This document shows, one piece after another, positions 7,523-29,983 of a stretch of 29,983 nucleotides of DNA. Made by a program: the position numbers and the translations under genes. Positions within the stretch are counted from its first letter, which is position 1. Each line of letters begins with the position of its first letter. This DNA comes from a virus. The notes under the pieces are model-generated. The model was not told the DNA's origin. It searched no databases and worked only from the letters and a program-made list of their open reading frames with translations. The stretch is taken from positions 1-29,983 of IMG/VR virus record IMGVR_UViG_3300010391_000071, one strand, 5' to 3'.

Positions 7523-8540
7523 GACTCTTACCTCCAACACGTTGTGAGTTACCGAGAGCTGCTTCGAGCTCTATGACGATGAGGTCATCCGGTTGGGCTG
7601 TCTCATCACAGTCCTCTGGATATGAGACCTCATAGACTCCGAACGTACTTGCTGCGAGCCTCTGGCACACGCGGGCGCTACCTTTTCGACCAGGCTCGTT
7701 GTTGTCTAGCAGTACGAAGGTCTCCACACCCAGGCTCCTGACGATTCGTTCCTGGTTGGGGGATATCCGTGCGCCCATGAGGGCTACAGTGTTGATCCAG
7801 CCGTTCTGGACCAGCCACAGCGCAGCCTTGTAGCCCTCGACAATGATGAGCTGCTCTTGACCTCCTTCGTTCTTCATGAGGCGCTCGTAGCACCTGTCCA
7901 GCCTCCACAGATGGTCACGCACGCCCTCGTTGGTGTAGTCCGGGTACCATTCCCCTAGCTCTCCCAGCACCTCCTTTCCGTCTATGACCCGACGACCACT
8001 GTAGATGAGGTACTTGGGCTCTTCCCCAATCATCGTGGCCCGACCCGAGATACCAACTAAGTTGCCGAACAGGTCCCTTATGGGGAAAGTTACGCGGTTA
8101 TTGCGCCTGTCATACCCAATCTCGTGTTCCTGCAACACGCCCTTGTCAAACCCAGCTTCCACCAGGTCCAGGGGCATGAAGTCGAAGACCCCGAGCAGGG
8201 CGTCAGGGAGCAGGTGTTCGCCGGCGAACGGCTTCCTGGCCTTCCTGCGTGCCCTGGCCTTATCCACCTCAATGGTCTTCTTCGCTTCCTTCTCGGCCTC
8301 CTCTAGCCGGGCGTCGAAATGAGCCGTGCTAACCCCCAGCTTCTTCAGAAGCCACTTGAGCCCACCTCCATGCTCACCACAGGTGAAACAGCCCCAGTTC
8401 CCTATCTGTCGATTGACCCAGAACGAAGGCATGGACTCGTGCCCTCCTTTGTGGAAAGGGCATGCGGCCGAGATGAACTCGTCCTTGACCCGGACTCTCT
8501 TGAGGTATTGCTGGGCGATCTCGTCAGCAAGGCTGCTCAT
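7446..8540 (-). CDS. dnaG: DnaG-type DNA primase
   Basis: The product has 364 residues. A CHC2 zinc finger stands at the N-terminus (C27, H30, C51, C54), a primase core follows, and then a TOPRIM domain with VEGYKAAL (E235) and LLDNNEPGRKG (D279). In DnaG proteins the zinc finger recognises template and the TOPRIM residues bind catalytic metal for RNA primer synthesis. The usual DxD of TOPRIM reads D-N-N here, so the second Asp is Asn. The protein lacks a C-terminal helicase-binding domain of bacterial length. Its start overlaps the helicase stop as ATGA, a common coupling for replisome partners. Its last 77 bp overlap the start of the SSB candidate. The last 35 residues (after about residue 330) look unconserved. 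Confidence 0.9.
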   Translation of the reverse strand: MSSLADEIAQQYLKRVRVKDEFISAACPFHKGGHESMPSFWVNRQIGNWGCFTCGEHGGGLKWLLKKLGVSTAHFDARLEEAEKEAKKTIEVDKARARRKARKPFAGEHLLPDALLGVFDFMPLDLVEAGFDKGVLQEHEIGYDRRNNRVTFPIRDLFGNLVGISGRATMIGEEPKYLIYSGRRVIDGKEVLGELGEWYPDYTNEGVRDHLWRLDRCYERLMKNEGGQEQLIIVEGYKAALWLVQNGWINTVALMGARISPNQERIVRSLGVETFVLLDNNEPGRKGSARVCQRLAASTFGVYEVSYPEDCDETAQPDDLIVIELEAALGNSQRVGGKSHVRRELRQLGRQPGGRSTVRARSQQ

Positions 8541-11347
8541 TTCATCCCCGAGTTTGCCAGGGCCTTGTTGAAGTCCGACGCGGTCTTTGGCTCCGCTCGT
8601 TCCTTCTTGGCGGGGGTGTCGTCGTCCTTGTCGTCGATCTTCATCCAGTCCTTGATGCGCTTCATGTCTGGCTTGTCCGTGATGAGGCTGAAGTTGTAGG
8701 ACGGAATGGCCTTGATTGTGAATGCCTCCAGTGTGCCCTCACGATTGCCACCCATCACCAGTGCTAGCTCCCCACCTACCCTCTTGATGCCTGCCTCTGC
8801 GGAGAGCTTGTCCATCAGGTAGGAGTTCACCGTTCTCTTATCATCTACCTCTGACACTCCTAGCTTGATGCGGGGGAGCCTACGTCGGATGGGACTCGGG
8901 GCTGCTTTTGCATCTCGTAGTACCCGTACGAACTCCTCCTCGTAGTCCTCCTCATGCAGTCCGATGTAGCCGGGGCTCTTCAACACGCGAATGATGAGGT
9001 CGGCCTCCCTGGCTATGACGTCAGCATCTGCTAGGTCGGCCAGCGTGTTGCCGTAGGTCTTCTCACCAAGCCGATTGGCTTGATGCACCGCGACGATGGG
9101 CAGATGGACGTCTTCTGCATAGGCCTTCACGTCTTCCGCCATCGTTGCCACGCGCTGCCACCGTACCGTGATCTGCTCCGACCGCAGGGAGTCCATGTGG
9201 TAGAAGCTGTCCAGGTAGATGACGTCAGGCTCGAACTCTTCCACCTTCTCCTTCAGCCCCTCAAGACTCCTCGGGGCCTGCCTGCCGGCCAGCATGAGGA
9301 GATCCCGCATCCCTGCTGCAGCCCCTCGTCTCAGATCGTGCTTCACCCTGCCCGTGGTAAGAGACTCGAGCACGGCAAAGCAGTGCTCCCTCATCTTGGG
9401 TGGAAGCAGCCCCTTCTTAAACAGCTGGTAGTCAACCCGTGACAGCAGGGTTGCAAGACGAAGCCCCAGCTTGAGCGGGGACATCTCCTTCGACCAGATC
9501 AGGACCCGCTTGTTGTGGTTCAGGTAGTCGACGGCGGCGCAGTAGAGCAAGATCCATGTGTTGTGGACGACGAAGCCCTCCACAACAAAGTTCGGATCTT
9601 GCCCGTCCTCGATGCAGATGTCGTAGCAAGGCACTTGCCCGATTGGGGTTATGCTCTTGATCCTTTCCCAGGCAATGTCTTGGTTGGCTACATTTCGCAG
9701 CTCATCGGAGTCAAACGCCTCAGCCAGCTTTGTCAGCAAGCGCCTGCTGATCCGGCCGGACTGAAACAGCTTGGACTTATCCATCTTCGAGAGGCCAGAC
9801 TTTGGCCACTCGTATCCTTGCTTGGCTGCGATGATCGTGGACTCCAACTCCTTGGTCCACGGGATGGCGTCGGTGTTGACCCTCGTGGGCCCAGTGACGA
9901 CACCGAGCGTTGTGAGGGCCTTTCTCTTCCTTTCAGAGCTGAGGAACGGGCCCACAACCCTGTCAAGGGTCTGAGCGTCCTTCTTGGTGTAGACCGTCAA
10001 GCTGTAGGCTTCCGTCCCGTAATTGGTTGTGGCCTGATTCGCTCGGGCTCGAATGCCGAACCTGAGAAGGAGGTGTTGCAGATCCCCGATGAGCCCCTGG
10101 CTGGCGCTCTCCCATCGGACCACCTTCTTCACGTGGCCATCCGTATCGAGATAGCCCGCGATGAATGCGGCAATCGACTCCCGACTAGAGGTGAAGACTG
10201 CTCTGGGAATCCGCTTCTCAGGACCCTTGCTGCCATGGATCCCTAGATCCTTGAGTAGAGTGAGCACCTTGTTGTGCTTCTCTGTTGCCTCTCGACGGAC
10301 TCGGAACTCGATTGGCCGAGCCCCTACCGTGAGCACACAGTTATGACGAGCAGCATGCCTTCTCAGAGCCTGTAGGACGTCCTGATCAGCGCGAGTGTAG
10401 TTCCCGTCGCCTACCAACAGCCCTAGTAGATGCGCATCCTCGGGAGTTACTTGGTCTTTGTCTGGGCTCCATTCGGGCAGAGACCTAGCGGTGGCGACGT
10501 GGTTCCCCACTCTCAGATCCTTGATTCTCCGGTACTTGCCTCCTGGAACCATGTAGAGATGGTCCTTGCTGGTTCGGAGCCGCAGTCCGGACTCCGTCAC
10601 GACCTCCACGCTGTCTTTGGTGCCACTTACCACTCGCCTGGCCTTGGCCATGCGGATACGGCCGGTGGTCTCTGTGAACGACGGTGCCTTACAGAGCTCA
10701 GGTACCTCTTCGATAGGCAGCAGGGCTCCGTCTGGCATCATGACGCGCTGCCCTTCGCAGACGCACTTCATGCTCTTCATGCGGCCGTAGAACACCACGA
10801 AGTCACCGCCACGCTTGCCGAGCGTGTCCTCGGTCAGGCACTGCCAAGGCCAGGGAACCCCGAAGATGGCCCCCGTCTGGGCACCCTCGTAGTGCTCCTT
10901 GGCCATTGACAGGATTTCCTGGACACCCATCCCATTGGACTGCTCACCGGTATTGAGCTTGACCTCTATCTCCAACAGGCGCTTCTTCAACACCTGGATG
11001 GCGTTGACCGGGTCTTCCTCGACGAGCTCCTTGAAGTACTCCGACATCGACCAGACGTCGGACTCGAAAGCCTTCATCTTCAGTTCGTCGATGAGTGCTG
11101 TGAGCACCCCTTCCTCGTCCTGACTTGTGGCCGTAAGCGTGAACGCTGGCCACCTCTGGCGGACACGCTGTATTGTGGGCAGAGTTCCATTGGTATTTGG
11201 GTTGTACCAGTGCTGCTTCAGGAACCTGAAGATCATCCTGGAGTCGGGGTTGAGGAAGTGCTCTTCACATAGGCCGCGCTTCACCACCTCTTGAAACGAC
11301 CCGCTCTTCAGTACCTTCGTGAGAACACGATCCTCTAGTGCTGCCAT
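8537..11347 (-). CDS. dnaB: DnaB-type replicative helicase interrupted by an intein
   Basis: The precursor has 936 residues. Removing the intein (residues 195-596) leaves a 534-residue helicase. The N-terminal part (1-130) fits the DnaB N-domain. The RecA-type motor follows, with the P-loop split by the intein: GRMKSMK before it and T after it. Walker B is PDVIYLDSFYHMD, and the H3/H4 segment is PIVAVHQANR. DnaB proteins are hexameric 5'-3' helicases that unwind the fork and recruit primase. The rebuilt P-loop is GRMKSMKT, in which the Gly of the usual GK(T/S) is Met. The start at 11347 is preceded by GAGAGG. The C-terminus is Lys/Asp-rich. The primase start overlaps its stop. An accurate annotation must report mature helicase and intein separately. 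Confidence 0.93.
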   Translation of the reverse strand: MAALEDRVLTKVLKSGSFQEVVKRGLCEEHFLNPDSRMIFRFLKQHWYNPNTNGTLPTIQRVRQRWPAFTLTATSQDEEGVLTALIDELKMKAFESDVWSMSEYFKELVEEDPVNAIQVLKKRLLEIEVKLNTGEQSNGMGVQEILSMAKEHYEGAQTGAIFGVPWPWQCLTEDTLGKRGGDFVVFYGRMKSMKCVCEGQRVMMPDGALLPIEEVPELCKAPSFTETTGRIRMAKARRVVSGTKDSVEVVTESGLRLRTSKDHLYMVPGGKYRRIKDLRVGNHVATARSLPEWSPDKDQVTPEDAHLLGLLVGDGNYTRADQDVLQALRRHAARHNCVLTVGARPIEFRVRREATEKHNKVLTLLKDLGIHGSKGPEKRIPRAVFTSSRESIAAFIAGYLDTDGHVKKVVRWESASQGLIGDLQHLLLRFGIRARANQATTNYGTEAYSLTVYTKKDAQTLDRVVGPFLSSERKRKALTTLGVVTGPTRVNTDAIPWTKELESTIIAAKQGYEWPKSGLSKMDKSKLFQSGRISRRLLTKLAEAFDSDELRNVANQDIAWERIKSITPIGQVPCYDICIEDGQDPNFVVEGFVVHNTWILLYCAAVDYLNHNKRVLIWSKEMSPLKLGLRLATLLSRVDYQLFKKGLLPPKMREHCFAVLESLTTGRVKHDLRRGAAAGMRDLLMLAGRQAPRSLEGLKEKVEEFEPDVIYLDSFYHMDSLRSEQITVRWQRVATMAEDVKAYAEDVHLPIVAVHQANRLGEKTYGNTLADLADADVIAREADLIIRVLKSPGYIGLHEEDYEEEFVRVLRDAKAAPSPIRRRLPRIKLGVSEVDDKRTVNSYLMDKLSAEAGIKRVGGELALVMGGNREGTLEAFTIKAIPSYNFSLITDKPDMKRIKDWMKIDDKDDDTPAKKERAEPKTASDFNKALANSGMK
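9560..10765 (-). mobile_element. Intein in the helicase P-loop with LAGLIDADG endonuclease
   Basis: This is an in-frame 402-residue intein (precursor residues 195-596). It starts with Cys (CVCEGQRVMMPDG, splicing block A), has a TSKDHLY block B (residues 259-265) and ends VVEGFVVHN, followed by Thr as the first C-extein residue. Inside are the two LAGLIDADG helices, LLGLLVGDG (D314) and FIAGYLDTDG (D401/D403), so the homing endonuclease appears intact. It sits exactly between Lys and Thr of the Walker A motif, so the helicase should be inactive until splicing. Cys1, the terminal His-Asn and Thr+1 are all present, which predicts splicing competence. Confidence 0.92.
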
Positions 11348-16416: not shown

Positions 16417-18834
16417 ATGAAGAAGGTCAAGACCTCAGGAATAGCCGAGCGTGTCGGCAGGGCGGGTGCCGAAGGCGTCATGGAGGGTGTCCGCGCCCGC
16501 CTCGGCCCTATCCTTGAAGAGCAGGTTGGCCCGTTCTGGAACAGGCTACACAAGGAACTCCCTGGAACTGCCCGTGAGACTGTTCGACAGGCTGCTGAAG
16601 AGGCCAAGGACATCGGTAGCCGAGCTATCAGAGGTGTCAGCTTGCCCGCCGGCCTTGGTGCAGGAGCAGGGGCACTCACGGCTCCAGAAGGCGAACGGGG
16701 GGAAGGCGCACTTCGAGGTGCTGCGGGCGGCTTGGCTGGTAGCCTGGTCGGGGCAGCTTGGGGGCACAGTCTTCCGTCGGCAGCGGGTCGCGCGCTGACC
16801 CTCGGGGGAAGTACTCTAGGTGGCGCTGGCGCTGGGGCAACACTGAGGCACGGGAACAAGGAGAAGCCCATGAAGAACAAGTACGCTGGTGTCGTTCTCG
16901 ACGCTTACGACGACATGGGCGCAACCTTGAAGGTCAAGTTTCCCACTCTCGAGTCCCTGCCCGATATCATCAAGACTGCCGATGTACGGCCCATGGAGAA
17001 GCTGGGCAACGAGGACTTCGCACTCATCGCGCTCGACGAGGGCCACGTCCTTCGCAAGTACGCTTGCCACGACGCGGGCACCACGGCGATGTCCGTCGTC
17101 TACTTCATGGAGCATGGGGACAAGCTTCCCGAGAATGCCCAGAAGCTGGCTGCGGTCAATCTTGTCCAGGCCTGTCGGCGCTTTGACATCAGACCGCCGG
17201 ATCTCCTAGTGAAAACTGCCGGGCTTGTTCCTGAGTTGCGGAACATGATCGCAGGGGCTTTGGGGGGCGGTGTTGGGGAGGCAGCAATAAACCCAGACCT
17301 GAACCTTCGTGATCTTGGTATCTCTTTGGCAGTTGGTGCCGCGACTGGGCTGCTACCAGTCCCAGCAAACACCATGATGAGGGCTCTGGGAGGGGCCATG
17401 GTTCCTGCTGTTTCCCACGCTGCGGGAAACACCATGTCAGGAGGAGAGAAACGCTCCACTGGCACTATCGGTGGGGGTGGCGCAGTAGGCAACCCAGAGA
17501 AGGAGAGCCAGAAGCTGGCAGCAGCCAACCTCGCCCGTGCCTGCATTCGCTTCGACCTTGACCCGCCTGAAGCGCTGGTGAAGACGGCTGTCTCACCGGA
17601 GTGGGTCAAAGGGACGGTCGCACGATGGGCCCCAAAAGCTACGCGCGAAGCAATTCTGTCTGGTCCGGCAGCGTTGAGACGCCACACTACTCGACTAATG
17701 TCAGCGGCCGAGAAGCACTCTCCGCAGGCAGGCGCTAAGCACGAGGCACTGGCCCACCAGCTCCTGGGGCAGTGGGGGGTTGCGAAAAGCTACCGGCACC
17801 CAAAGGAGCTAGCGGCGGCTCGAGAGACACTGCTGGCAAGAGGTTTTGCCCCCGCCAAGGTGGCTGCGGCCCCCTCGGGTGGCGAGAGCCAGAAGCAGGC
17901 TGCAGACATCATCGCTGGCGGCAAGGCCGACAAGAAGACCAGCAGCGACTTCTCACCAAAGCAGATGGAGATGGGGAAGAAGGTCGAGAAGGAGCACACG
18001 AACAACCCACAGGTCGCGGCGGAGGTGGCCCGCGTTCACCTCGAAGAGATCCCCGACTACTATACGAGGCTCGACAAGATGGAGAACGAGGCCAAGCAGG
18101 CGAACGTGGTGGACATCACAGGCAAGCGGCCGACTCCGAAGGTCAAGGTCGCCAAAGCAAGTGGGCCTGAGGATTACGCTGTCATCCTCGATGGCAAGGG
18201 CTACTACCCCATCCACACCTGGGACCTCGTGAAGAAGGCCGAGGTCTACTACCAGGAGGAGAAGGGTCGGATGCAGCCAGAGGTCCGCAGGCAGTACGCG
18301 GTCAAGCTCGCAGACAAGGCCGCATCGATGGGCTACCCGCTAGACCCAGACGTCCTGGAAGCCGGTGCCACAAGTTGGGCCCCGAAGGGTCACTTGAAGG
18401 CGGCGGTTGAGATGCGCAAGATCGCCTGCCAGCCAGGCACTGGAGACCGCAAGTTCCTCGACGAGCTCTTCGAGAAGCGTGCCAGCATCGACCCACCCAC
18501 CTACGCCGAGGTGCTACGCCGCTTTGATGTAGAGCACGGGCTCGACAAGGGCTGGGACCACGTCATCCTAGACCCGTGGGCTTCGACCTTCGGGCTCAAC
18601 AAGACGGCTGATGTGGTGTGGGAGGACGGCGCCGATCGGGTGACCAACGACCAGCTAATGTTCCTTTCCCAGAACCATGCTGCCTTCAACCGTGACTTCA
18701 CTGAGGAGTTCCGCAAGGAGTTCCAGAAGGACCCGGTGTCCATCTTCGAGTCCCTACCTCTACCCCAGAAGCGCATCATTGCCAGGCTGGCGGCTGACTT
18801 CCCACACCAGAGTGAGATCACCCAGAGCCGCTAG
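16417..18834 (+). CDS. Probable virion protein with internal repeat and possible second start
   Basis: The product has 805 residues from ATG 16417 (GAGG upstream). Residues 1-150 are Ala/Gly-rich with glycine-zipper-like stretches (GLGAGAGAL, GGLAGSLVGAAWG, GGSTLGGAGAG). An in-frame ATG at 16870 has a perfect AAGGAG six bases before it and could start a 654-residue product (MKNKYAGVVLDAYDD). A 28-residue motif occurs twice (241-268 and 364-391), with 19 identities; a Gly-rich hydrophobic segment lies between. Later parts are charged and helical, including SGPEDYAVILDGKGYYPIHT (about 585-604). No named family is recognised. First place in the head-gene block and co-orientation with the portal gene suggest a structural or internal virion protein. 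Confidence 0.7.
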   Translation: MKKVKTSGIAERVGRAGAEGVMEGVRARLGPILEEQVGPFWNRLHKELPGTARETVRQAAEEAKDIGSRAIRGVSLPAGLGAGAGALTAPEGERGEGALRGAAGGLAGSLVGAAWGHSLPSAAGRALTLGGSTLGGAGAGATLRHGNKEKPMKNKYAGVVLDAYDDMGATLKVKFPTLESLPDIIKTADVRPMEKLGNEDFALIALDEGHVLRKYACHDAGTTAMSVVYFMEHGDKLPENAQKLAAVNLVQACRRFDIRPPDLLVKTAGLVPELRNMIAGALGGGVGEAAINPDLNLRDLGISLAVGAATGLLPVPANTMMRALGGAMVPAVSHAAGNTMSGGEKRSTGTIGGGGAVGNPEKESQKLAAANLARACIRFDLDPPEALVKTAVSPEWVKGTVARWAPKATREAILSGPAALRRHTTRLMSAAEKHSPQAGAKHEALAHQLLGQWGVAKSYRHPKELAAARETLLARGFAPAKVAAAPSGGESQKQAADIIAGGKADKKTSSDFSPKQMEMGKKVEKEHTNNPQVAAEVARVHLEEIPDYYTRLDKMENEAKQANVVDITGKRPTPKVKVAKASGPEDYAVILDGKGYYPIHTWDLVKKAEVYYQEEKGRMQPEVRRQYAVKLADKAASMGYPLDPDVLEAGATSWAPKGHLKAAVEMRKIACQPGTGDRKFLDELFEKRASIDPPTYAEVLRRFDVEHGLDKGWDHVILDPWASTFGLNKTADVVWEDGADRVTNDQLMFLSQNHAAFNRDFTEEFRKEFQKDPVSIFESLPLPQKRIIARLAADFPHQSEITQSR
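17137..17589 (+). repeat. Internal protein duplication (two copies of a 28-residue motif)
   Basis: Copy 1 is nt 17137-17220 and copy 2 is nt 17506-17589. Shared core features are QKLAA, NL, AC, RFD, PP and LVKTA, at 19 of 28 positions. Each copy ends just before a more variable segment. The copies lie 123 residues apart, with a hydrophobic Gly-rich stretch between, as if one module had been duplicated or a membrane-like segment inserted. Confidence 0.75.
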
Positions 18835-18843
18835 AGGAGCAAC

Positions 18844-19230
18844 ATGAACGCCTTAGTCTTCAGGGGCTTCATCGACGAGCTTATGAAGATTGCAGGCTTC
18901 GCGTCCGAGGTGACGTCAGAGGCGGCAAATCTAGCCAAGAGGGTCTACCAAGCCAGGAAGGGCAGCTTTGCTGGGCTCCCCACGAACACAATCAAGGAGC
19001 TCGAGCATTACATGGCCCGGCCTCAAGGGCTTCATAGTTCCACTCAGCTATCCCAGTCGGCAGTGAGCCCTGCTGCGACCCCTGAATTCCTGGCGCGTAT
19101 CAGGGCCCAGAACGCGGCTTCCCAGGTAGCTCGGGCACGACCACCTGTGACCGCACCACAGATGCCGAAGCCACCGGTAGCGAAGCCGGCTGTTGCGACG
19201 CCCAAGATGGCAATACGGAGCGCCGCATGA
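18844..19230 (+). CDS. Small Pro/Ala-rich protein with N-terminal F-x-DEL-x-KIA motif
   Basis: The product has 128 residues with GAGGAG five bases before ATG 18844. The N-terminus contains FIDELMKIAGF (residues 9-19). A similar motif occurs at the N-termini of the genes at 20090 and 24337. A helical middle follows. The C-terminal half is Pro/Ala/Lys-rich and probably disordered (RPPVTAPQMPKPPVAKPAV). No family is recognised. Its stop overlaps the next ATG as ATGA. A virion-associated role is inferred from position. Confidence 0.68.
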   Translation: MNALVFRGFIDELMKIAGFASEVTSEAANLAKRVYQARKGSFAGLPTNTIKELEHYMARPQGLHSSTQLSQSAVSPAATPEFLARIRAQNAASQVARARPPVTAPQMPKPPVAKPAVATPKMAIRSAA

Positions 19231-20105
19231 CAGAAGCTGGGTCGATGGCTAAGTGGGGTCTGGATATCTCGAAGGCCCCAGCCCCGGTGCAGGCGTCGCT
19301 GGAACCGATCATTCGGTTCTTCAGTTTCCATGACGCCCACCCAGTGGCGCTGACCCTGGTCCTGATGGAGAAGTTCGGTACTGAGTGGTTGGAGTGGGAG
19401 GCGGACACCCTCAAGCGGGAGATTCTCACTACGTTTCGGGCTACCTCCGTCAGTGAGCACAACTGGCAGAAGATTCAGGCCGTGCGAGTGCTGACTTCGA
19501 CGATGGGTTTCTGGAGCGAGTGGCACATCTTCGAGAAGATCATCCAGGCGCTGAACAACAATGTCCCGAGGTTCGATATCACCCAGCGCTGCACCATGGC
19601 TCAGCTCATGGCGGGGGTCGACATCGCGAACACCATGCGCAAGGAGACCTACGGGGACGAGATTTCCCGATACGTCGCGGCCTGCGCCCTCGATGAGGGG
19701 GTCATCTATCTGCCAGCTCCCTTGGACTTCGCCAGCGAGGTGCTGTCTGAGCCCTCCTATACCTGCAGGGTCTGCGGGAATGTCGACACGGACGATCTAG
19801 ACGGCCGATGCGACTTCTGCACGGCGAGATTCCTGGACGACCACCCCCTGAACATGAAGCCGGCCATTGGAGTCCCAGCGAGTGCTGGCACCAGCGTCGA
19901 CTACTACTTGAAGCGTGACCCCGCCCCGGTCGAGACGAGATTCCTTGAGCTCAAAGAGAAGGGGCCTGAGGCACTCAAGCTAGACGAGAACAAGACAGAA
20001 GATGTCCAGTCAGCAAAACTCATGGTAGCGTACGAGTACATGCAGCTGCGCAATCGACAACTGGCTGAACAGCTCGAGGAGCTGAAGTCGTGGGTGACCC
20101 ACTGA
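19227..20105 (+). CDS. Zinc-ribbon protein in the head-gene block
   Basis: The product has 292 residues from ATG 19227 (GGAG upstream). The first 170 residues are mostly helical and Trp-rich (EKFGTEWLEWEADTLKREIL, STMGFWSEWHIFEKIIQAL). A zinc ribbon follows: C180, C183, C195 and C198 (CRVCG to CDFC). The tail is a charged helix (AYEYMQLRNRQLAEQLEELK). No family is recognised. The position two genes upstream of the portal suggests a role in head assembly or packaging, but the sequence does not show which. Confidence 0.68.
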   Translation: MTEAGSMAKWGLDISKAPAPVQASLEPIIRFFSFHDAHPVALTLVLMEKFGTEWLEWEADTLKREILTTFRATSVSEHNWQKIQAVRVLTSTMGFWSEWHIFEKIIQALNNNVPRFDITQRCTMAQLMAGVDIANTMRKETYGDEISRYVAACALDEGVIYLPAPLDFASEVLSEPSYTCRVCGNVDTDDLDGRCDFCTARFLDDHPLNMKPAIGVPASAGTSVDYYLKRDPAPVETRFLELKEKGPEALKLDENKTEDVQSAKLMVAYEYMQLRNRQLAEQLEELKSWVTH

Positions 20106-20995
20106 GCGAACAGAGCCTGGAGTCGTTCAACAACGAGCTTCAGAAGCTGGCCCAAGGTGGGTTCTTCCGCCAGGCTGGCAAGTTCGTATTGAATAGGCTG
20201 CGCCGCCCCAAGGAGTTGGGCTTGGGTGCTCTTGGGCAAGTTGGAAGAGTCACTCGTGGGGTCTTCGAAGGCGGGGACAAGGCCCTTGGAAGGATCAGAC
20301 ACCCACTTGAAGGGCTAAGAGCGGGGTGGCGGGAGTCCTCACCAGTAAACGTGATGAAGGACAAGGCGAAAGAGCTCGGCCAGAAGCTGGAAGGGCGTGA
20401 CTTCTCGATACAGGAGGCGGCCCAGCATCTCAAATCCAAGATTCCCCCCAAACCCGCCGACCGGTCACTGTGGAGCCGGGTCAAGACAGGCCCGACTGAA
20501 GCAGAGAAGTCCTACTCTGCAGCTCAGGAATCGCACGACAAGTTCATGCAGGGCGGTGGGGAGCACCTGCTTGGCACGAAACCAGGCACGGGACGAATCA
20601 AGGCAATAGCAGAAGAGCTATCCCGCCGGGGGTGGACAGGTGCAGGCCCCAAGACGAAGTATCTTCCAGGGGGAATGAAGAGTTGGAGTGTGCTGCCGGT
20701 AGGCTTGGAGATACCGAGTATCGTAAATGCCCCCGCCCCAACTCCTACAGGAGAAGGTGGTGCGTTGGAGCAGGGTCTTGGCGCTCTTGGCGGTACGGCG
20801 GGGTTCATAGCCAGTACAGGAGTTGGCCTGGTGCCCGGCGCTGCCATGTGGTACGGGGGACAGAAGGCCGGTTCCCGACTAGGCAGGGTACTGGACCGGA
20901 TACGGGCTGGGGCCCCTTTGAGAACTGCTGTGAGTGCACCATCCCCGCAAGAAGCTGCGGAGCAGCTACAGACGATCCAGCAGCACTATGGGTGA
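20090..20995 (+). CDS. Gly-rich probable virion protein with N-terminal targeting-like motif
   Basis: The product has 301 residues with a GTG start at 20090 and GAGGAG seven bases upstream, inside the previous gene (16-bp overlap). The N-terminus has SLESFNNELQKLAQGG, matching the F-x-(D/N)-E-L-x-K-(I/L)-A motif of its neighbours. The middle is basic. Residues about 228-265 form a glycine-zipper-like hydrophobic segment (GLGALGGTAGFIASTGVGLV, then PGAAMWYGG) that could insert into a membrane. No family is recognised. Internal or ejected virion proteins of other phages often have such segments, which makes that an option here. Confidence 0.68.
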   Translation: MGDPLSEQSLESFNNELQKLAQGGFFRQAGKFVLNRLRRPKELGLGALGQVGRVTRGVFEGGDKALGRIRHPLEGLRAGWRESSPVNVMKDKAKELGQKLEGRDFSIQEAAQHLKSKIPPKPADRSLWSRVKTGPTEAEKSYSAAQESHDKFMQGGGEHLLGTKPGTGRIKAIAEELSRRGWTGAGPKTKYLPGGMKSWSVLPVGLEIPSIVNAPAPTPTGEGGALEQGLGALGGTAGFIASTGVGLVPGAAMWYGGQKAGSRLGRVLDRIRAGAPLRTAVSAPSPQEAAEQLQTIQQHYG

Positions 20996-20998
20996 TAG

Positions 20999-23900
20999 AT
21001 GATTGACGCCCTGACGTTCGGCCCTGCAGGCGGCCTGCGCTTCTCCAGGAACACTGGCCGTTCCATGACCAGTGAGGCCCTTGGGGCCATCCGCTACCCC
21101 TCGCCCTTCTTCGACATCGCGCACACGTATCTGCCGTCGTCCTTCAAGACGATGCTCAGGTGGTGCCGCTACTATTACCTGACGAACCCGATTATCAGTG
21201 CGGTCTGCTCGAAGATGGCAGAGTACCCAGTGACGGACCTCGTGTTCGACACCGAGAACGAGACCCTTCGCAAGCAGTGGGAGTACTTCTTCCACAACGT
21301 CCTCAAGTTCAAGATGTTCGAGGTCGAGGCTGGGCTCGACTACAACGTCTACGGTAACGCCCTCATCTCGATGGCCTTCCCGTTCCAGAAGCTGCTTATC
21401 TGCAAGCACTGCAACCATACGGCCCGCATCGAGAAGCAGAAGTATATCTTCCGCGAGTACAAGTTCGTGGGTGAGTGCCAGAGGTGCGGCAACCATCAGG
21501 AGTTCCAGGTCCGCGACCACTACGTCCGATCGGTCCGTGACATCCGACTGATTCGCTGGAACCCAGAGTACATCACCGTCCAGCACAATGAGGCCACGGG
21601 CGAGAGCCGGTACTACTACGTCATTCCGCCGATGCTGGCGAACGATGTGCGCATGGCGAAGCGGCACATCATCGAGCGCATCCCGCAGGTCTTCATGGAG
21701 GCACTGCGCCAGAACAAGGCGCTGCTCTTCAGTCGGGACAACATCTACCACATGAAGCGCCCCACCATCGCCCAGAAGGACAAGGGCTGGGGCATGCCGA
21801 TGATCCTGCCGGTGTTGAAGGACACCTTCTACCTGCAGGTCCTCCGCAAGGCGCAGGAGGCCATTGCCGTCGAGCACATCGTCCCTCTTCGACTGCTCTT
21901 CCCGCAGACGGCCTCACCTGATGCGAGTGTCTACTGCACGTCGCTGGACACCCTAGTCGAAACTCGAGATGGACCTCTGCCTGCGTCGGAAGTGAAGTTG
22001 GGGGACTACCTCAAGTCACGCGTGGGGAGTTGGGAGAAGGTGGAAGCAATCGCGGATCGACCTGTTCGACCCGATGAGACGACCAGAGAGTTCACGGTGG
22101 CCTCCTTGCCCGCCTTCCCGTTCACCTTGTCGGAAGAGCACCCGGTGTGGGCAGCCACCGAACACAACCCTTGGAGCTACGATGGGGTAGGAGAGCCGGA
22201 CTGGGTCGATTCCAAGGATCTGAAGGAAGGCGACTTTGTCCTCTACCCCGTGGGCAGAAAGACCTGGTCCAACCTCGACCTCGATCTTGCTGGATACGTC
22301 AAAGAGCGGGCTTACACCGAGCGGTACATCTACCGTCGCCTGAGCCTAGCCAAGGCAGAGATCTACGAGTGGCTGGAGATGAACGGCTTGCCAGAGTTCC
22401 AACGTGGCGAGCGCGAGACCTTCCTTCAAGACCACAAGTGGGACCTCCAGGATTGGGTCACTGCCCGAAGTGTTTTCACCGAGCAGGAGTCGGTTGACCG
22501 AGTGCCTCGCTACCTCCGGGTGACTGAGGAGTTGGCCTACATCATCGGGCTATACGCAGCGGAGGGCTTCTCGAATGGGGACAGTGCCTCTTTGGCGCTC
22601 AACTCCAGCGAGACCAATCTTATGGACCGGATGGACGAGGCCCTGATGTCCATTGGAATGGGCGCCCCTACTCGTCATTTCCACTCGACGGACAAGGGGG
22701 CGACTTACGCCACCAACGACGTCATCTTGGGCGAGTTCCTGAAGAACGCCTGTGGACATGGGGCGGGCCACAAGAAGCTTCCCCGGTTCATTATGGAAGC
22801 GCCTGACGGCATTGCTCTAGCTGCCTTGGAGGGCCTGTTCTCGGGGGATGGGTCCTGCACGTTCACAGAAGCCACCTCAACGGTAGGACTGGTCACCACT
22901 AGCCCGTCACTGGCTGTAGGGTCTCGGCAGCTACTTCTTTCCATGGGGTACATCCCCACTATCAGCAAGCGCGCGCCCAAAGAAGGCAGCTTCGGAATCA
23001 GCGACTCTTACGAGGTTCGCTGCAGCGGCGCGCAGGCTGAGTCGTTGGCAGGAGCGTTCGGCTGGCCAGTCGTGGGCAAGACTCGGGTGAAGAATGAATG
23101 GAGCGGCTGCGGGTTCATCCGGGACGGCTATGTCTACCTGAGGGTCAGGAAGGTCGCAGAGCGACCCGTCTCTACCGTGCGTGGCTTCCAGATGGCGGGG
23201 GACAAGTCCTTCTGTGTGGTGGGGGTGGCAACCCACAACTCGACGGTCAACCTGACCCAGTGGCGTGACAAGATCGAGCAGGAGATCGTTCGCTGGAGAC
23301 TCGACAACAACTACATCCCTCTCCTCCCCATTCCTGTAGGCCAGCAGACCCTCGGCGGCGATGGTCGTGCCCTCATGCTGGCGCAGGAGTACCGGGTGTG
23401 GTGCGAGCACATCATCTCCGGCATGGGCGTTCCCATCGAGTTCTACTTTGGCGGGATGCAGTTCTCAGGCAGCAACGTCTCGATGCGTATCCTCGAGAAC
23501 CACTTCCTTGACCAAAGGACCCAGCGTAAGCAGCTGGTCACCGACTTCATCATGCCTAACGTCTCAGCATTCATGGGCTGGGAGCCGGTGCCGTGCCACT
23601 ACAAGCGCTTCAAGATGGCTGACGACCTGCGGCGCAGTGCCCTCTACCTGCAGATGAACCAGGCTGGCAAGCTGTCCGACAAGTCCCTGATGGAAGACAT
23701 GGACTGGGATGCCGTCAAGGAGTCCGAGATCATCTCCATCGAGCAGAAGCGCGTCCTCGAGAACCAGCGTTCCCAGGCTCTCGCACAGGCAGGCATCCAG
23801 GGTGAAGCACAGCTCGTCCAGGTGAAGTACCAGATGCGCGGCCAGAAGATCATGATGGAGCAACAGGTTCCGCCCATTGCCCCGGAGGACCAGAAGATGC

Positions 23901-24340
23901 TCCAGGAGCAGGGTATGGCCGCAGCGGGGCAGCCTGGCGTGGCCAGCCCAACAGCGATGGGCGCACAGGGCAACTCCCAGATGGCGATGATGAACCGGGC
24001 AGGGGCTGTCCCACCCATGCCGTTCGCCGGCGAACAGCAGGGCCAAGAACAGGGACAGGGGTCAGCAGCGGCTGCAGGTGGGGAGTCTCCACTGGTCGCT
24101 AACCAACCAGCCCAGATGGATATCTTCACCGTGGCCAACCAGGTAGTCGGTTGGCTCAACCAGCTGCCCGAGCATGAGAAGCAGAAGGAGCTCGTGCAGA
24201 TGCAGCAGGCCAACCCACAGCTCTACTCTATGGTTCTGCAGCTGCTGCAGCAGAGCCGTGGGGCCAACAAGAACTCGGCTGCCATGCCATTGCCTGAGCA
24301 GAGGCCCCCAATGCGCGGCCCGGAGGCGTCATCGATATGA
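20999..24340 (+). CDS. Portal protein interrupted by an intein
   Basis: The precursor has 1113 residues; removing the intein (313-747) leaves 678. The N-extein reads like a portal: TNPIISAVCSKMAEYPVTDL (62-81), FEVEAGLDYNVYGNALISM, and RDNIYHMKRPTIAQKDKGWG. The C-extein continues with the portal stem region and ISGMGVPIEFYFGGMQFSGS, and ends in a Gln/Ala/Met-rich tail. Portals form the dodecameric ring at the capsid vertex through which DNA is packaged and ejected. A zinc ribbon (C135, C138, C160, C163) is inserted near residue 150, which is uncommon. Translation starts four bases after the previous stop, with a weak GGGTGA site. The next gene overlaps its stop as ATGA. Confidence 0.85.
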   Translation: MIDALTFGPAGGLRFSRNTGRSMTSEALGAIRYPSPFFDIAHTYLPSSFKTMLRWCRYYYLTNPIISAVCSKMAEYPVTDLVFDTENETLRKQWEYFFHNVLKFKMFEVEAGLDYNVYGNALISMAFPFQKLLICKHCNHTARIEKQKYIFREYKFVGECQRCGNHQEFQVRDHYVRSVRDIRLIRWNPEYITVQHNEATGESRYYYVIPPMLANDVRMAKRHIIERIPQVFMEALRQNKALLFSRDNIYHMKRPTIAQKDKGWGMPMILPVLKDTFYLQVLRKAQEAIAVEHIVPLRLLFPQTASPDASVYCTSLDTLVETRDGPLPASEVKLGDYLKSRVGSWEKVEAIADRPVRPDETTREFTVASLPAFPFTLSEEHPVWAATEHNPWSYDGVGEPDWVDSKDLKEGDFVLYPVGRKTWSNLDLDLAGYVKERAYTERYIYRRLSLAKAEIYEWLEMNGLPEFQRGERETFLQDHKWDLQDWVTARSVFTEQESVDRVPRYLRVTEELAYIIGLYAAEGFSNGDSASLALNSSETNLMDRMDEALMSIGMGAPTRHFHSTDKGATYATNDVILGEFLKNACGHGAGHKKLPRFIMEAPDGIALAALEGLFSGDGSCTFTEATSTVGLVTTSPSLAVGSRQLLLSMGYIPTISKRAPKEGSFGISDSYEVRCSGAQAESLAGAFGWPVVGKTRVKNEWSGCGFIRDGYVYLRVRKVAERPVSTVRGFQMAGDKSFCVVGVATHNSTVNLTQWRDKIEQEIVRWRLDNNYIPLLPIPVGQQTLGGDGRALMLAQEYRVWCEHIISGMGVPIEFYFGGMQFSGSNVSMRILENHFLDQRTQRKQLVTDFIMPNVSAFMGWEPVPCHYKRFKMADDLRRSALYLQMNQAGKLSDKSLMEDMDWDAVKESEIISIEQKRVLENQRSQALAQAGIQGEAQLVQVKYQMRGQKIMMEQQVPPIAPEDQKMLQEQGMAAAGQPGVASPTAMGAQGNSQMAMMNRAGAVPPMPFAGEQQGQEQGQGSAAAAGGESPLVANQPAQMDIFTVANQVVGWLNQLPEHEKQKELVQMQQANPQLYSMVLQLLQQSRGANKNSAAMPLPEQRPPMRGPEASSI
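21935..23239 (+). mobile_element. Intein in the portal gene with LAGLIDADG endonuclease
   Basis: This is a 435-residue intein (precursor residues 313-747). It starts CTSLDTLVETRDG (block A), has a TLSEEHPVWA block B (H381) and ends DKSFCVVGVATHN, followed by Ser as the first C-extein residue. LAGLIDADG helices are YIIGLYAAEG (E522) and ALEGLFSGDG (D617), each keeping an acidic residue, so the endonuclease may be active. The exteins join as ASPDASVY to STVNLTQW. Confidence 0.92.
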
Positions 24341-24756
24341 ACTCGATTCTCATCAACACCTTCTTCGACGAGCTGACGAAGATTGCTATCGAGTCAGCAG
24401 GTGTAGATCCATTCGCTGGAGACCCCCGTTTTACTGCAGAAGGCATGGCCAAAGCTAGGACAGGAACCCAGCTACAATGGGGTCAGCCACAGGCCCAGCC
24501 ACAGGCCCAGGTCAAGCCAAAACCCATTCAGTACGCACCTACCATGGTAGACCCACAAGCAAGAGTCCCACCACGACAACCAGGCTGGCAAGGTCCTCCA
24601 CGTCAGCCTGCGGCTCAAGCGGCTTCATCAGCGGGGCAGTCAGCTGGAAGGCTGAGGGGTATCCTTGGTAAGGTCACAGGTAGCCGAATGGGACGCTTCG
24701 GCCTTGGTGCGGCTGCACTAGGAGGTGCGGCAGCTCTTGGTCACAGCCTGGGATAG
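24337..24756 (+). CDS. Small protein with N-terminal F-x-DEL-x-KIA motif and Gly-rich C-terminus
   Basis: The product has 139 residues; ATG overlaps the portal stop (ATGA). The N-terminus has NTFFDELTKIAIESAG, again the shared motif. The middle is Gln/Pro-rich, with a short repeat (QPQAQPQAQ). The C-terminus (RFGLGAAALGGAAALGHSLG) is a glycine-zipper-like hydrophobic helix. It is the last gene before the terminator at 24764. No family is recognised. Its build (targeting-like motif, disordered linker, hydrophobic tail) parallels the gene at 20090. Confidence 0.68.
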   Translation: MNSILINTFFDELTKIAIESAGVDPFAGDPRFTAEGMAKARTGTQLQWGQPQAQPQAQVKPKPIQYAPTMVDPQARVPPRQPGWQGPPRQPAAQAASSAGQSAGRLRGILGKVTGSRMGRFGLGAAALGGAAALGHSLG

Positions 24757-25846: not shown

Positions 25847-26000
25847 CCTAGCCTCCGGGCTTGGGTCAAAGATTGGGCCTCCGTAGTTCTTATGCCAGAA
25901 GTTGGTGCCTTGCTTTCATGGGTGTAGGATGTCTGGAAACGTGGTACCCATCCATCGCTCAGGCTGCCTCGCGTAGCCCACGACAGTGCTGAGAGGCCTG
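25847..26000. promoter_or_regulatory. Divergent spacer upstream of rpoB with a promoter candidate
   Basis: This 154-bp spacer lies between the leftward small-gene cluster and rpoB. The best plus-strand promoter is TTGGTG (25902-25907), 17 bp, TAGGAT (25925-25930), which would give a leader of about 64 nt. It matches the sigma-70 consensus at 3 of 6 and 4 of 6 bases, so it is weak. On the minus strand no convincing promoter was found. GAGAGG (25991-25996) is the rpoB ribosome site. Confidence 0.4.
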
Positions 26001-29000
26001 ATGGCACACTACTCGCCGGAAGACGCCTTTGAAGAGCTGAAGCAGCGTACCTCCAAGACAATCCAGAACTACTTCCCGATCGAAGGTCGGCAGCACACGT
26101 TGTCTGCCAAGAAGGTCTGGGTCGAGGACAACAAGGGTGTCGACGACATCCGCGATCAGAAGGACGCCAAGGTCAAGGGTCGTAGTTGGACCGTCCCCAT
26201 CCGTGCCGAGCTCGAGCTGAAGGACAACCTGACCGGCAAAATCATCGACCGCCAGGTCGTCAACGTTGCTCAGCTCCCCAAGATCACCCGTCGCTACAGC
26301 TACATCGTTGACGGCAACGAATGGCAGGTGAACAACGTCTTCCGCATGAAGTCGGGTGTCTACACCCGCATCCGGAAGAACGGTGAGCTCACCGCCATGT
26401 GGAACCTGGCCAAGGGCCAGAACTTCCACATGGACTTCAGCCCGAAGAACCAGAAGATGTCGCTTCGCTACGGCGAGGCTCAGATTCCTCTCTACCCGGT
26501 GCTCAAGACTATGGGCATCGATGACGACTCCATAGAGCGCTCTTGGGGCAAGGACATCTTCAGTGCCAACAAGGCAGGGACTGATGAGGTAGCCCTTCGC
26601 AAGTTCTACCGAGCCATACGTGGGTCCAACCCAGAGACTCTGGATGAGGCCAAGAAGTTCATCCTCGACGAGTTCGACAAGTCGGTCCTGCGCCCCGACT
26701 CCACCCAGCTCACTCTTGGCAAGCCCTATGACAAGGTTTCAGGGTCGGCTCTCCTCGATGGCTCTCACAAGATCCTGAGGGTCTCCCGCCAGGAGATTGA
26801 GCCAGATGACCGGGACTCACTCCCGTTCAAAGACCTCCACTCTGCTGAAGATCTCATCAACGAGCGCCTGGAGAAGTGGAAGACCGAGAAGGATGTCAAG
26901 AGGAAGATTGGCAACACACTGGACAAGAACACCAAGGTCCGGGACATCATCAACCCGGATATCTTCGGCAAGCCCCTGCGCCGTTTCTTCACCAGCTCCG
27001 TTCTTTCTGAGCGTCCGACGCAGACGAACCCCATCAGCTTCATCTCGGGGAACCGGAAGACCACTCTCTTTGCACCTGGTGAAGGCGGCATCTCTTCGGC
27101 CCACCAGATTTCTCTCGAGGCCCAGTCCATCAACCCCAGCCACCTGGGCTTCTTGGATCCAATCATGACCCCGGAGAGCGAGCGCATCGGCGTGACGCTG
27201 CAGCTCGCCTCCCAAGTAGTGAAGGAAGGGCACGATATCAAGATCCCTGTCTTCAACATGAAGACCGGCAAGCGGGACATGATCAACCCGTATCAAGCGC
27301 TCAAGTCCAACCTCGCCTTCCCTGACCAGTACGAGTGGAAGGGAGGCAAGCCGACCTCTTTGAAGACCCACATAAAGGTCTCCGACCCCGACGGCACTGT
27401 GACAGTGGTGAAACCAAGCGAGGTGGACTACGTCCTTGGTTCGTCAAAGGGCATGTTTGACCTACCGGCCAATCTGATCCCATTTCTCCAGAACAACCAG
27501 GGCAACCGCACCATGGTTGCCTCTCGCCAGATCGAACAGGCCATTGCCTTGAAGGATCGAGAAGCACCGTTGGTCCAGACCCGCAGCGACAAGCCTTCCC
27601 GCACGTTCGAGCAAGGCATTGGCGAGTTCGTGAGCCACGTCGCGCCGTTTGACGGCACCGTGGAGAAGGTGAAGAAGGACGGCATCATCATCAAGGACAA
27701 GGCTGGGAAGCGCCTTGAGGTTCAGCTCTACGACGACTTCCCCCTGAATGACGACAAGAGTGTTCTCAATAGCACCCCGACTGTGAAGGTGGGCGATTCG
27801 GTGAAGGCAGGGCAGGTAGTAGCCGACACCAACTTCACGAAGGGTGGCGTCTTGGCTCTAGGCACCAACCTGCGTGTCGCCTACATGCCCTGGAAGGGCT
27901 ACAACTTCGAGGACGGTATCGTCATCTCTGAGACTGCAGCCAGGAAGCTAACGTCGGAGCACCTCTTCCGGGAAGGTATCACCGCCGAGAAGAGCCTCAG
28001 GCTCGACAAGAAGAAGTTCCTCTCCTACATGGCCGGCAAGGTCTCGAACGAGCAGGCTGAGAAGCTTGACGATGACGCAATCATTCGTGAGGGTCAGGTT
28101 GTCAACAAGGACGATGTTCTCATAGGTGTGCTCAAGGAGGAGACGATTAGCCCAGACGAGCAGAAGCTCGGGTTGTTCTCGAAGGGGCTCATACGTCCCT
28201 GGAAGCCTCGTGAGATCCGCTGGACGAAGGACGTCCCCGGCATGGTCACCAAGGTGGTGAAGCACGGTAGGGACACTACGATCTACATCCGTGCAGAGAC
28301 ACCGGCAGACGTGGGCGACAAGATCGTGGGGCGGCACGGCAACAAGGGCATCATCACGAACATCATGCCCGATCATGAGATGCCCCATGACAAGGATGAC
28401 AAGCCTGTCGAGGTCATCCTCAATCCAACTGGCATTCCCTGCTACGACGAGGAGACGGAGTTCCTCACGACTGAGGGGTGGGTCCGGGCTCCCGACATCA
28501 AGGCAGAGCACACCTACGCCACGCTCAACCCCAAGACTCTGACTTTGGAGTTCCAGAAGCCCGAAGAGGTCTATCATGTCCCCCACAAGGGCAAGATGTA
28601 CCGAGTCCAGAATCAGCAGCTTGACGTGCTGGTGACCCCAAACCACAAGCAGTTTACGGCAAGGCGGGGCAACCACCTGATGTCTGGACCTCTTGATCTG
28701 GACAACCCGGAGGTGCCGTCCCTATTCGAGCTGAGAGAGGCCAAGGAGATATTCGGGCAGCCTCGCCGGTACCTGAAGGCTGCCAGATGGGGAGGCACCA
28801 GCGAGTTTATGTACCACGTGCCGAACGGCACTCCGGCCTCAAGCGGCCGGCCGGCTGACGGGTTCAACATCAGCGCTCCCCAGTGGGCCGAGTTCATGGG
28901 GTGGTACCTGTCGGAGGGCAGCACCTACTTCAATCAGGCCAACTACGGATATGTAGTCGAGATCTCCCAGAGCAAGGAAGCTAACCCGGAGAAGTACGAT

Positions 29001-29983
29001 CGGATCGTTGCTCTCGTGGAGATGATGGGAGTGAACTTCGAGCAGGCGCCGCAAGGCATTCGCATCAAGCACAAAGGGCTCTATGAGCTGCTCCGGCCCC
29101 TGGGAGGAGCTCGAGAGAAGTACATCCCTCGCTCAGTGCTCGACATGGATTCGAGGCACTTGAGGATTTTCCTGGATGCACTTCTCTCTGGTGATGGATC
29201 GGAAACGTGGGACGAGGAGACGGGCCACTACGGTAACCAGCGCTACTGGACTTCGTCCAAGCTTCTTGCCGACGGCGTACAGGAAGTATGCGCCAAGCTC
29301 GGCATTGCGGCCAACGTGAAGAGAGAGACTCGCCGCGGGGAGGGGGCCTGCTACCACCTGTCGATTAGCGGGAGCCGCGCTGCTCCTTGGGTGAACTGGT
29401 CAGACACTACCAAGCTTAACCAGGTGGAGGAGTGGATCGACTACGACGGGATCGTTCACTGCGCCACGGTCCCCAATGGAGTCCTTCTAGTCCGAAGGAA
29501 CGGCAAGGCAGTCTTCAGCGGTAACACTCGTATCAATCTTGGCCAGGTACTCGAGACCTCTGCAGCCAAGATTGCGGAGAAGACTGGCAAGCCCTACGTC
29601 GTCAACAACTTCGACCCCAAGGTTCCTGACTACACACGGAAGCTGAAGGCGGAGCTGAAAGAGGCGGGCGTTTCGGATACCGAGGACCTCTACGACCCAG
29701 TCACCAAGCGCAAGTTCCCAAACGTCCTGGTTGGGCCCCAGTACATCCTCAAGCTGCACCATACAGCAGAGAAGGGTCTGTCCGTCCGCTCTCGCGATGC
29801 CTACGATTCAAACATGCTACCTGCCGGCGGCGGTCCCAAGGGCGGTCAGACCATGGATGTCATGGGCCTGTACGCCATGCTGGCGCACAACGCCCGCGAG
29901 AACATCCGCGAGATGCAGACCTATAAGTCCGATTTTAACGATGATTTCTGGGCCCAGCTCCAAGCAGGAGATTCGATCCCCAC
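26001..29983 (+). CDS. rpoB: RNA polymerase beta subunit interrupted by an intein (C-terminus beyond window)
   Basis: The frame is open for 1327 codons from ATG 26001 to the window end. Without the intein (814-1175), 965 residues of beta are visible. Landmarks in order, aligned by eye to bacterial beta, are: the protrusion-type YSYIVDGNEWQVNNVFR; the fork region NPSHLGFLDPIMTPESERIG; PANLIPFLQNNQGNRTMVAS; YNFEDGIVISE (634-644); VGDKIVGRHGNKGII (771-785, with K774 and K782 at positions matching catalytic-site lysines of E. coli beta); VEVILNPTGIP; and after the intein TRINLGQVLET, LKLHHTAEKGLSVRS, GGQTMDVMGLYAML and ENIREMQTYKSD. Beta with beta' forms the RNA polymerase active centre. A phage copy implies its own transcription of phage genes. 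It is a single polypeptide here, not split as in phiKZ-type phages. The ribosome site is GAGAGG. Confidence 0.95.
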   Translation, partial: MAHYSPEDAFEELKQRTSKTIQNYFPIEGRQHTLSAKKVWVEDNKGVDDIRDQKDAKVKGRSWTVPIRAELELKDNLTGKIIDRQVVNVAQLPKITRRYSYIVDGNEWQVNNVFRMKSGVYTRIRKNGELTAMWNLAKGQNFHMDFSPKNQKMSLRYGEAQIPLYPVLKTMGIDDDSIERSWGKDIFSANKAGTDEVALRKFYRAIRGSNPETLDEAKKFILDEFDKSVLRPDSTQLTLGKPYDKVSGSALLDGSHKILRVSRQEIEPDDRDSLPFKDLHSAEDLINERLEKWKTEKDVKRKIGNTLDKNTKVRDIINPDIFGKPLRRFFTSSVLSERPTQTNPISFISGNRKTTLFAPGEGGISSAHQISLEAQSINPSHLGFLDPIMTPESERIGVTLQLASQVVKEGHDIKIPVFNMKTGKRDMINPYQALKSNLAFPDQYEWKGGKPTSLKTHIKVSDPDGTVTVVKPSEVDYVLGSSKGMFDLPANLIPFLQNNQGNRTMVASRQIEQAIALKDREAPLVQTRSDKPSRTFEQGIGEFVSHVAPFDGTVEKVKKDGIIIKDKAGKRLEVQLYDDFPLNDDKSVLNSTPTVKVGDSVKAGQVVADTNFTKGGVLALGTNLRVAYMPWKGYNFEDGIVISETAARKLTSEHLFREGITAEKSLRLDKKKFLSYMAGKVSNEQAEKLDDDAIIREGQVVNKDDVLIGVLKEETISPDEQKLGLFSKGLIRPWKPREIRWTKDVPGMVTKVVKHGRDTTIYIRAETPADVGDKIVGRHGNKGIITNIMPDHEMPHDKDDKPVEVILNPTGIPCYDEETEFLTTEGWVRAPDIKAEHTYATLNPKTLTLEFQKPEEVYHVPHKGKMYRVQNQQLDVLVTPNHKQFTARRGNHLMSGPLDLDNPEVPSLFELREAKEIFGQPRRYLKAARWGGTSEFMYHVPNGTPASSGRPADGFNISAPQWAEFMGWYLSEGSTYFNQANYGYVVEISQSKEANPEKYDRIVALVEMMGVNFEQAPQGIRIKHKGLYELLRPLGGAREKYIPRSVLDMDSRHLRIFLDALLSGDGSETWDEETGHYGNQRYWTSSKLLADGVQEVCAKLGIAANVKRETRRGEGACYHLSISGSRAAPWVNWSDTTKLNQVEEWIDYDGIVHCATVPNGVLLVRRNGKAVFSGNTRINLGQVLETSAAKIAEKTGKPYVVNNFDPKVPDYTRKLKAELKEAGVSDTEDLYDPVTKRKFPNVLVGPQYILKLHHTAEKGLSVRSRDAYDSNMLPAGGGPKGGQTMDVMGLYAMLAHNARENIREMQTYKSDFNDDFWAQLQAGDSIP
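28440..29525 (+). mobile_element. Intein in the RNA polymerase beta gene with LAGLIDADG endonuclease
   Basis: This is a 362-residue intein (precursor residues 814-1175) starting CYDEETEFLTTEGW (block A), with QLDVLVTPNHKQFTA as block B. The endonuclease helices are EFMGWYLSEG (E972) and FLDALLSGDG (D1065). Block F/G reads HCATVPNGVLLVRRNGKAVF and ends SGN. The penultimate residue is Gly instead of the usual His; Asn is followed by Thr. The exteins join NPTGIP to TRINLGQ, so it sits in one of the most conserved parts of beta. Confidence 0.93.

Follow-up and report, generated by a model that had tools for sequence, protein, structure and literature searches.

A 17-residue peptide tag recurs on unrelated proteins in a clade of metagenomic tailed phages, and it is likely to be a modular capsid-targeting peptide that is removed by the phage's own protease, cutting after Ala. 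The tag is a feature of viral proteins, travels with one protease family and one capsid family, and ends in a sequence that is enriched in head proteins. From this we infer packaging and cleavage of the tagged proteins.

Three unrelated proteins in the head region share an N-terminal tag

The window analysed here is a whole IMG/VR contig of 29,983 bp from a tailed phage. One strand carries replication genes (DNA polymerase A, RecA, DnaB with an intein, a DnaG-like primase and UDG), while the other carries the head region, a portal gene with an intein and an RNA polymerase beta-like gene. Capsid and protease genes lie outside the window because the contig ends, and both are known from relatives. 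The window holds three LAGLIDADG inteins in 30 kb, namely in DnaB (8537-11347, minus strand), the portal (20999-24340, plus strand) and the RNA polymerase beta-like gene (25986-29983, plus strand).

The first tagged protein (18844-19230, plus strand; 128 aa) starts with MNALVFRGFIDELMKIAGF and has the motif FIDELMKIA. Its tag, MNALVFRGFIDELMKIA, comprises residues 1-17 (18844..18894, plus strand), with a predicted cut after Ala17. The body had no relatives among related contigs, and the gene was missing between equivalent neighbours in the relative G003; the protein is a candidate for lineage-specific cargo. The second (20090-20995, plus strand; 301 aa, GTG start) begins with MGDPLSEQSLESFNNELQKLAQGG directly upstream of the portal gene, and its motif is FNNELQKLA. 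The tag, MGDPLSEQSLESFNNELQKLA, spans residues 1-21 (20090..20152, plus strand), the predicted cut being after Ala21, and orthologues precede the portal gene in G001-G004 and G007. The third (24337-24756, plus strand; 139 aa), encoded directly downstream of the portal gene, starts with MNSILINTFFDELTKIAIES, has the motif FFDELTKIA and carries the tag MNSILINTFFDELTKIA at residues 1-17 (24337..24387, plus strand), again with a predicted cut after Ala17. Spacing in the first and third tags is that of the majority of the tags collected below. The portal protein between the second and third genes (20999..24340, plus strand) is homologous to the gp204 portal of Salmonella phage Arash, with the intein at about residues 312-747.

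The first-pass annotation had described a common N-terminal motif on three otherwise unrelated proteins. All three motifs were present at the genes it had named, and the bodies proved unrelated, as phmmer gave no match among the three (E ≤ 0.1). PHROGs and Pfam searches returned nothing solid for any of them. Compared pairwise, the window tags have 5-7 residues in common, of which 3-5 use the same codon, a short stretch for judging duplication at the DNA level. The N-terminal location was correct for these three proteins but does not hold strictly, since some large proteins carry the tag internally or at the C-terminus.

The tag is non-random and specific to phages

With the C-terminal extein of the portal as query we found seven related contigs, 27 to 202 kb long, which were examined end to end; their genes were predicted and the N-termini were searched. 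The wider motif search that had been proposed for this DNA gave a result far above chance. Among the 921 predicted genes of the window and these relatives, F.[DNE]EL.K[IL]A occurred 15 times within the first 25 residues and not once in 20 rounds of shuffled N-termini, and it was 25-fold denser there than in protein interiors. At the DNA level, the pattern Fx[DN]ELxK[hydrophobic]A was found in 49/49 relatives, most of which had been picked for having the tag, and the reversed pattern, used as a control, in none of the same 49. The tag was also absent from the complete genomes of six cultured phages (Arash, Vibrio phage D69, phage G, Finch, Stormageddon and I3), and FxDELxKxA was absent throughout the 497-kb genome of phage G. 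Despite the shortness of the motif and the odd match in a conserved cellular protein, these counts refute a chance likeness of short amphipathic N-terminal helices, which is hardly credible as an explanation.

The full tag reads M-x(5-7)-[A/S]-F-x-[D/N]-E-L-x-K-[I/L]-A, with F usually at residue 9, as in at least 103 of 179 tags with an ATG start. Positions 9-17 of such tags are fixed by the search pattern itself, and positions 2-8, outside the pattern, still showed clear residue preferences. As a whole, the tag looks like an amphipathic helix. Some orthologues retain F..EL and K-x-A at altered spacing, and some variants lack the final Ala (KMS, KIG, KIS), which counts against cleavage as proposed here. 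Gene starts in these metagenomic contigs are predicted. Two small acidic proteins that adjoin tagged genes (G005:25553-25765 and G007:65403-65612) start with a variant, SFFDELSxI, with no clear K-x-A, and this is possibly an uncut form of the tag. A search of the open-access literature found nothing on the motif, on DUF5661 or on Arash.

Across loci from an IMG/VR pattern scan and their relatives, we collected at least 205 non-redundant N-terminally tagged proteins of the clade, falling into at least 127 body clusters (E < 1e-3); drawn in this way, both totals are lower bounds. A few of the clusters are probably chance matches, for example tail-like proteins that recur on contigs lacking the protease. 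When contigs were picked by protease or portal instead, the tag was present in 8/9, the exception being the most divergent, G061.

A close form of the pattern gave 36 matches in 84,980 bacterial and archaeal genomes, mostly to short ORFs or to a handful of conserved proteins that recurred. The recurrent matches, which we take to be HslU-like and PhoU-like proteins, fall at an internal Met or at a conserved start. Cellular genomes thus hold no comparable diversity of tagged proteins, and the tag is therefore a phage feature. A host cellular sorting or cargo peptide was considered as its origin and ruled out, since the tag is not on diverse cellular proteins in these genomes.

The tag is a module on diverse bodies

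Tagged bodies with Pfam matches included an SNF2 helicase, a His phosphatase, GNAT plus glyoxalase, InPase, NUDIX and a C92 peptidase. These resemble the packaged and injected enzymes proposed for polyvalent proteins, for which an InPase domain (PF18823) and host-directed or DNA-repair enzymes have been predicted to be packaged and injected (Iyer et al., 2017; PMC5512222). InPase (PF18823) and similar enzymes are common to the two sets. Polyvalent proteins are large and multidomain, and the portion of that source used here describes no shared packaging tag for them, whereas the clade's proteins are separate, often small, and share one. The first-pass annotation had held that the motif on many non-virion proteins would speak against packaging; the tagged enzymes, being of kinds proposed for polyvalent proteins, do not damage the idea in this way.

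Within one SNF2 helicase family the position of the tag varies freely: some members carry it at the N-terminus, some at the C-terminus, some at both ends and some not at all. Pseudanabaena phage PA-SR01 was considered as a cultured source of the helicase body and rejected, its homologue being untagged and in a different head module. Internal or C-terminal tags occur in large proteins such as helicases, a DNA ligase with a LigD_N phosphoesterase domain, and others. If cut, internal tags would split an enzyme or trim a long C-terminus, unlike the capsid-targeting sequence (CTS) of T4, and this speaks against our reading, as does Arash gp217, an untagged homologue of a tagged enzyme that is not annotated as structural. 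The head-region DNA ligases with a LigD 3'-phosphoesterase-like domain (both below the Pfam cut-off) and an internal tag are at G003:27264-29258 and G006:14451-16607.

Six genomes have orthologues of the gene that precedes the portal, with start and tag kept and spacing shifted in two. The six starts (FNNELQKLA, FADELQKMS, FADELEQIKKA, FVEELGELQKEA, FVDELEKQA and FGEELLKEA) keep F..EL and K-x-A constant, with K-x-S once, and the changing spacing between them suggests that the tag has two functional parts. In the slot downstream of the portal, relatives keep the tag on a body that differs from the window's.

Two further observations concern the tagged proteins. A second recurring N-terminal module, MPFKSxAQRR(K/L)FYA, occurs at G003:29268, G005:89272 and G006:764, on proteins that are tagged further in. 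A tagged protein of 175 aa (G006:12372-12899) contains YYHGTSPEAEKSIL, which resembles an ADP-ribosyltransferase fold (compare T4 Alt), and had no Pfam match.

The tag is linked to one protease and one capsid family

We assembled 50 contigs of 60 kb or more that were picked only for having the tag. One head maturation protease family was present in 42/50 and one major capsid protein family in 43/50. In the 48 contigs with a located capsid gene, 147/157 tags were on the capsid strand, a bias that is supportive only, because this strand holds 69-95% of coding bases in five relatives. Gene order was conserved as protease, p303, a small tagged protein, two scaffold-like proteins (so labelled from position and composition alone) and the capsid protein.

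The protease domain forms the first ~250 residues of a protein of 500-1,300 aa, and some members also contain InPase. It matched PHROG 18299, 'head maturation protease', in 16/20 members, as well as Stormageddon gp13, annotated as a capsid maturation protease. His-His (H118, H119) and Ser-Met-Gly (S175) are invariant, and a PDB sequence search with the protease gave no credible match. In one contig (L182:10001-12964) the protease turns intein-like directly after the conserved Ser-Met-Gly-Cys, the presumed active site.

RNA polymerase subunits are encoded beside the portal in tag-bearing phages, and 10/157 tags are not on the capsid strand. Both facts would fit a tag that sends proteins elsewhere than to the prohead, perhaps to a virion RNA polymerase, a membrane or a replication compartment. 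We consider such an address improbable: a small tagged gene is conserved between the protease and scaffold-like genes, the tag ends in the head-protein site described below, and cultured relatives with the same RNA polymerase lack the tag.

K-x-A is a predicted protease site in head proteins

All 400 residue pairs were scored at four spacings in 31 head proteins, a set partly chosen for K-x-A. In these head-cluster proteins K-x-A gave the strongest signal (372 seen vs 140 expected), and outside head proteins its frequency was ordinary (715 vs 696). Because of the way the set had been chosen, we repeated the analysis without selection, using every one of the 17 genes in a head region, where K-x-A again came first (105 vs 52 expected). 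In the head clusters of Arash (46 vs 21) and D69 (51 vs 22) it likewise ranked highest. The sites share the consensus phi-x-K-x-A, with A, S, G or E as the commonest next residues, and the end of the tag, L-x-K-[I/L]-A, matches this consensus. The protease itself has K-x-A on both flanks of its domain, at K30-x-A32 and K245-x-A247. Both are invariant or almost invariant, which would be expected of a protease that releases itself.

An excess of K-x-A was also seen in phage G gp19 and gp21 (L370) and in the head cluster of Finch (L371), in protease and head-cluster proteins, and the site may therefore be common to a wider protease superfamily. In the window, the 805-aa head-region protein (16417..18834, plus strand), with homologues in 7/7 relatives, is rich in predicted protease sites (18 K-x-A seen vs 8.3 expected). 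Residues 515-558 of this protein (17959-18090) form a DUF5661 segment; others are at G001:180181-180399, G003:46202-46468 and G006:33431-33631. DUF5661 appears to be a domain that moves between head proteins, as relatives carry it in a different K-x-A-rich protein.

The tag might do no more than expose a site for cleavage or degradation, leading to removal during maturation, with no part in targeting. Such a role would agree with the probable breakdown, during maturation, of scaffold-like proteins that contain many K-x-A. However, most K-x-A sites occur without the F-x-D-E-L part, and the tag has strict extra residues at a fixed distance from Met, making a role in cleavage only very improbable.

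The predicted site aligns with the capsid cut of phage G

The capsid protein of the clade is homologous to phage G gp27, a major capsid protein of the HK97-fold type (E 3.2e-8), which was its sole PDB match. In 36 capsid proteins K-x-A lies at residue ~25, and in 33/36 it is placed, ungapped, in front of a conserved (I/V)RxxLRE; two of the 36 have over-extended gene starts, and the K-E-A of Arash needs a one-residue shift. By N-terminal sequencing, the mature phage G capsid protein retains 255 of its 282 residues (PMC5646251 Table 1), and the length difference points to a cut after Ala27 (EEGRVALA / QAMANPIR). The PDB chain of gp27 begins at Met1, so that the cut is not visible there. Profile alignment matched Ile34 of phage G with Ile34 of the clade, and ungapped extension put Ala27 on the Ala of K-x-A; the cut position is thus measured in phage G and placed in the clade by alignment. 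The phage G capsid site is A-L-A rather than K-x-A, which counts against our reading.

These data also bear on the possibility that the tag is an uncut helix anchoring proteins to scaffold, portal or shell, with K-x-A as a repeated helical docking motif. The helical appearance of the whole tag and the spread of K-x-A along helical, scaffold-like proteins are compatible with an anchor. It would, however, leave unexplained why K-x-A flanks the protease domain on both sides, why in the capsid it lies where the mature end was sequenced in phage G, and why orthologues keep it despite changed spacing to F..EL. An uncut anchor is therefore unlikely, though it is the strongest of the alternatives.

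Discussion

The preferred reading is that of a targeting peptide cut by the head maturation protease. We propose that residues 1 to about 13, M-x(5-7)-[A/S]-F-x-D-E-L, fold into an amphipathic helix, F and L being on its targeting face, and that this helix attaches to the core or scaffold of the prohead during assembly. The remainder, L-x-K-[I/L]-A, would be the cleavage site, K-x-A being the processing signal and the cut following Ala; this division is modelled on the T4 CTS. A tagged protein would be drawn into the prohead during assembly, and its tag clipped off when the protease matures the head. The freed cargo would remain in the head and probably be ejected into the host with the DNA.

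The CTS of T4 has 10 residues, with residues 4 and 7 for targeting and residues 8 and 10 for processing (PMC9026906). Like the clade's tag, it is a short N-terminal peptide on unrelated internal proteins (IPI-III and Alt, cut by gp21; PMC9026906; PMC7411985), bipartite in its targeting and processing residues, and ending at a prohead protease site, which in the clade is a predicted one. The clade's tag differs in sequence and in length (about 17 vs 10 residues), may also be internal or C-terminal, and is found on more than 100 kinds of body. Its proposed cut follows Ala with Lys at P3, whereas T4 gp21 cuts after Glu. The first-pass annotation had compared the motif with T4's capsid-targeting sequences. 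Such a targeting role gains support from the more than 100 unrelated bodies, from linkage to one protease and capsid, from the K-x-A-matching end and from the alignment of the site's Ala with the sequenced maturation cut of the phage G capsid. The likeness to T4 extends to the design of the tag and not to descent, as no homology to T4's tag was found. Given the cut after Ala rather than Glu and no sequence relationship found, we do not file the tag in the T4 family.

In SPN3US and phiKZ, head, capsid and ejection proteins are cut by the phage protease at an x-spaced tripeptide, A-x-E or S-x-E (PMC5694885; PMC10052503). A single x-spaced tripeptide in head proteins is likewise the predicted site here. 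Their propeptides, unlike the clade's, are mostly longer than 100 residues, share no tag and are cut after Glu. Bacillus phage G is closer, with its capsid gp27 and protease homologue gp19 both homologous to the clade's proteins, gp19 rich in K-x-A and the capsid cut after the aligned Ala, but it lacks the tag and its capsid site differs. Arash and D69 have the same portal, RNA polymerase, protease and capsid families and K-x-A at the top in the head cluster, again without the tag. Since all three share the site or the cut position and lack the tag, the processing site would be older than the tag. We lean, with less assurance than for targeting and removal as such, towards a portable code that evolved independently, made of a helix and phi-x-K-x-A, cut after Ala by the phage's own protease in N-terminal, internal or C-terminal positions, and loading a large and quickly exchanged set of injected enzymes, with the site predating the tag.

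Which phage proteins are packed and injected is usually learned phage by phage, by mass spectrometry. If our reading is true, the packaged and injected cargo of this clade could be listed directly from metagenomes, and the list would take in many small proteins of unknown function together with helicase, NUDIX, InPase, GNAT and peptidase enzymes. In the first minutes, the tagged enzymes may already be acting on the host. The tag would be a second capsid-loading tag beside that of T4, served by a protease of another specificity, and the choice of ejection proteins could be tested directly.
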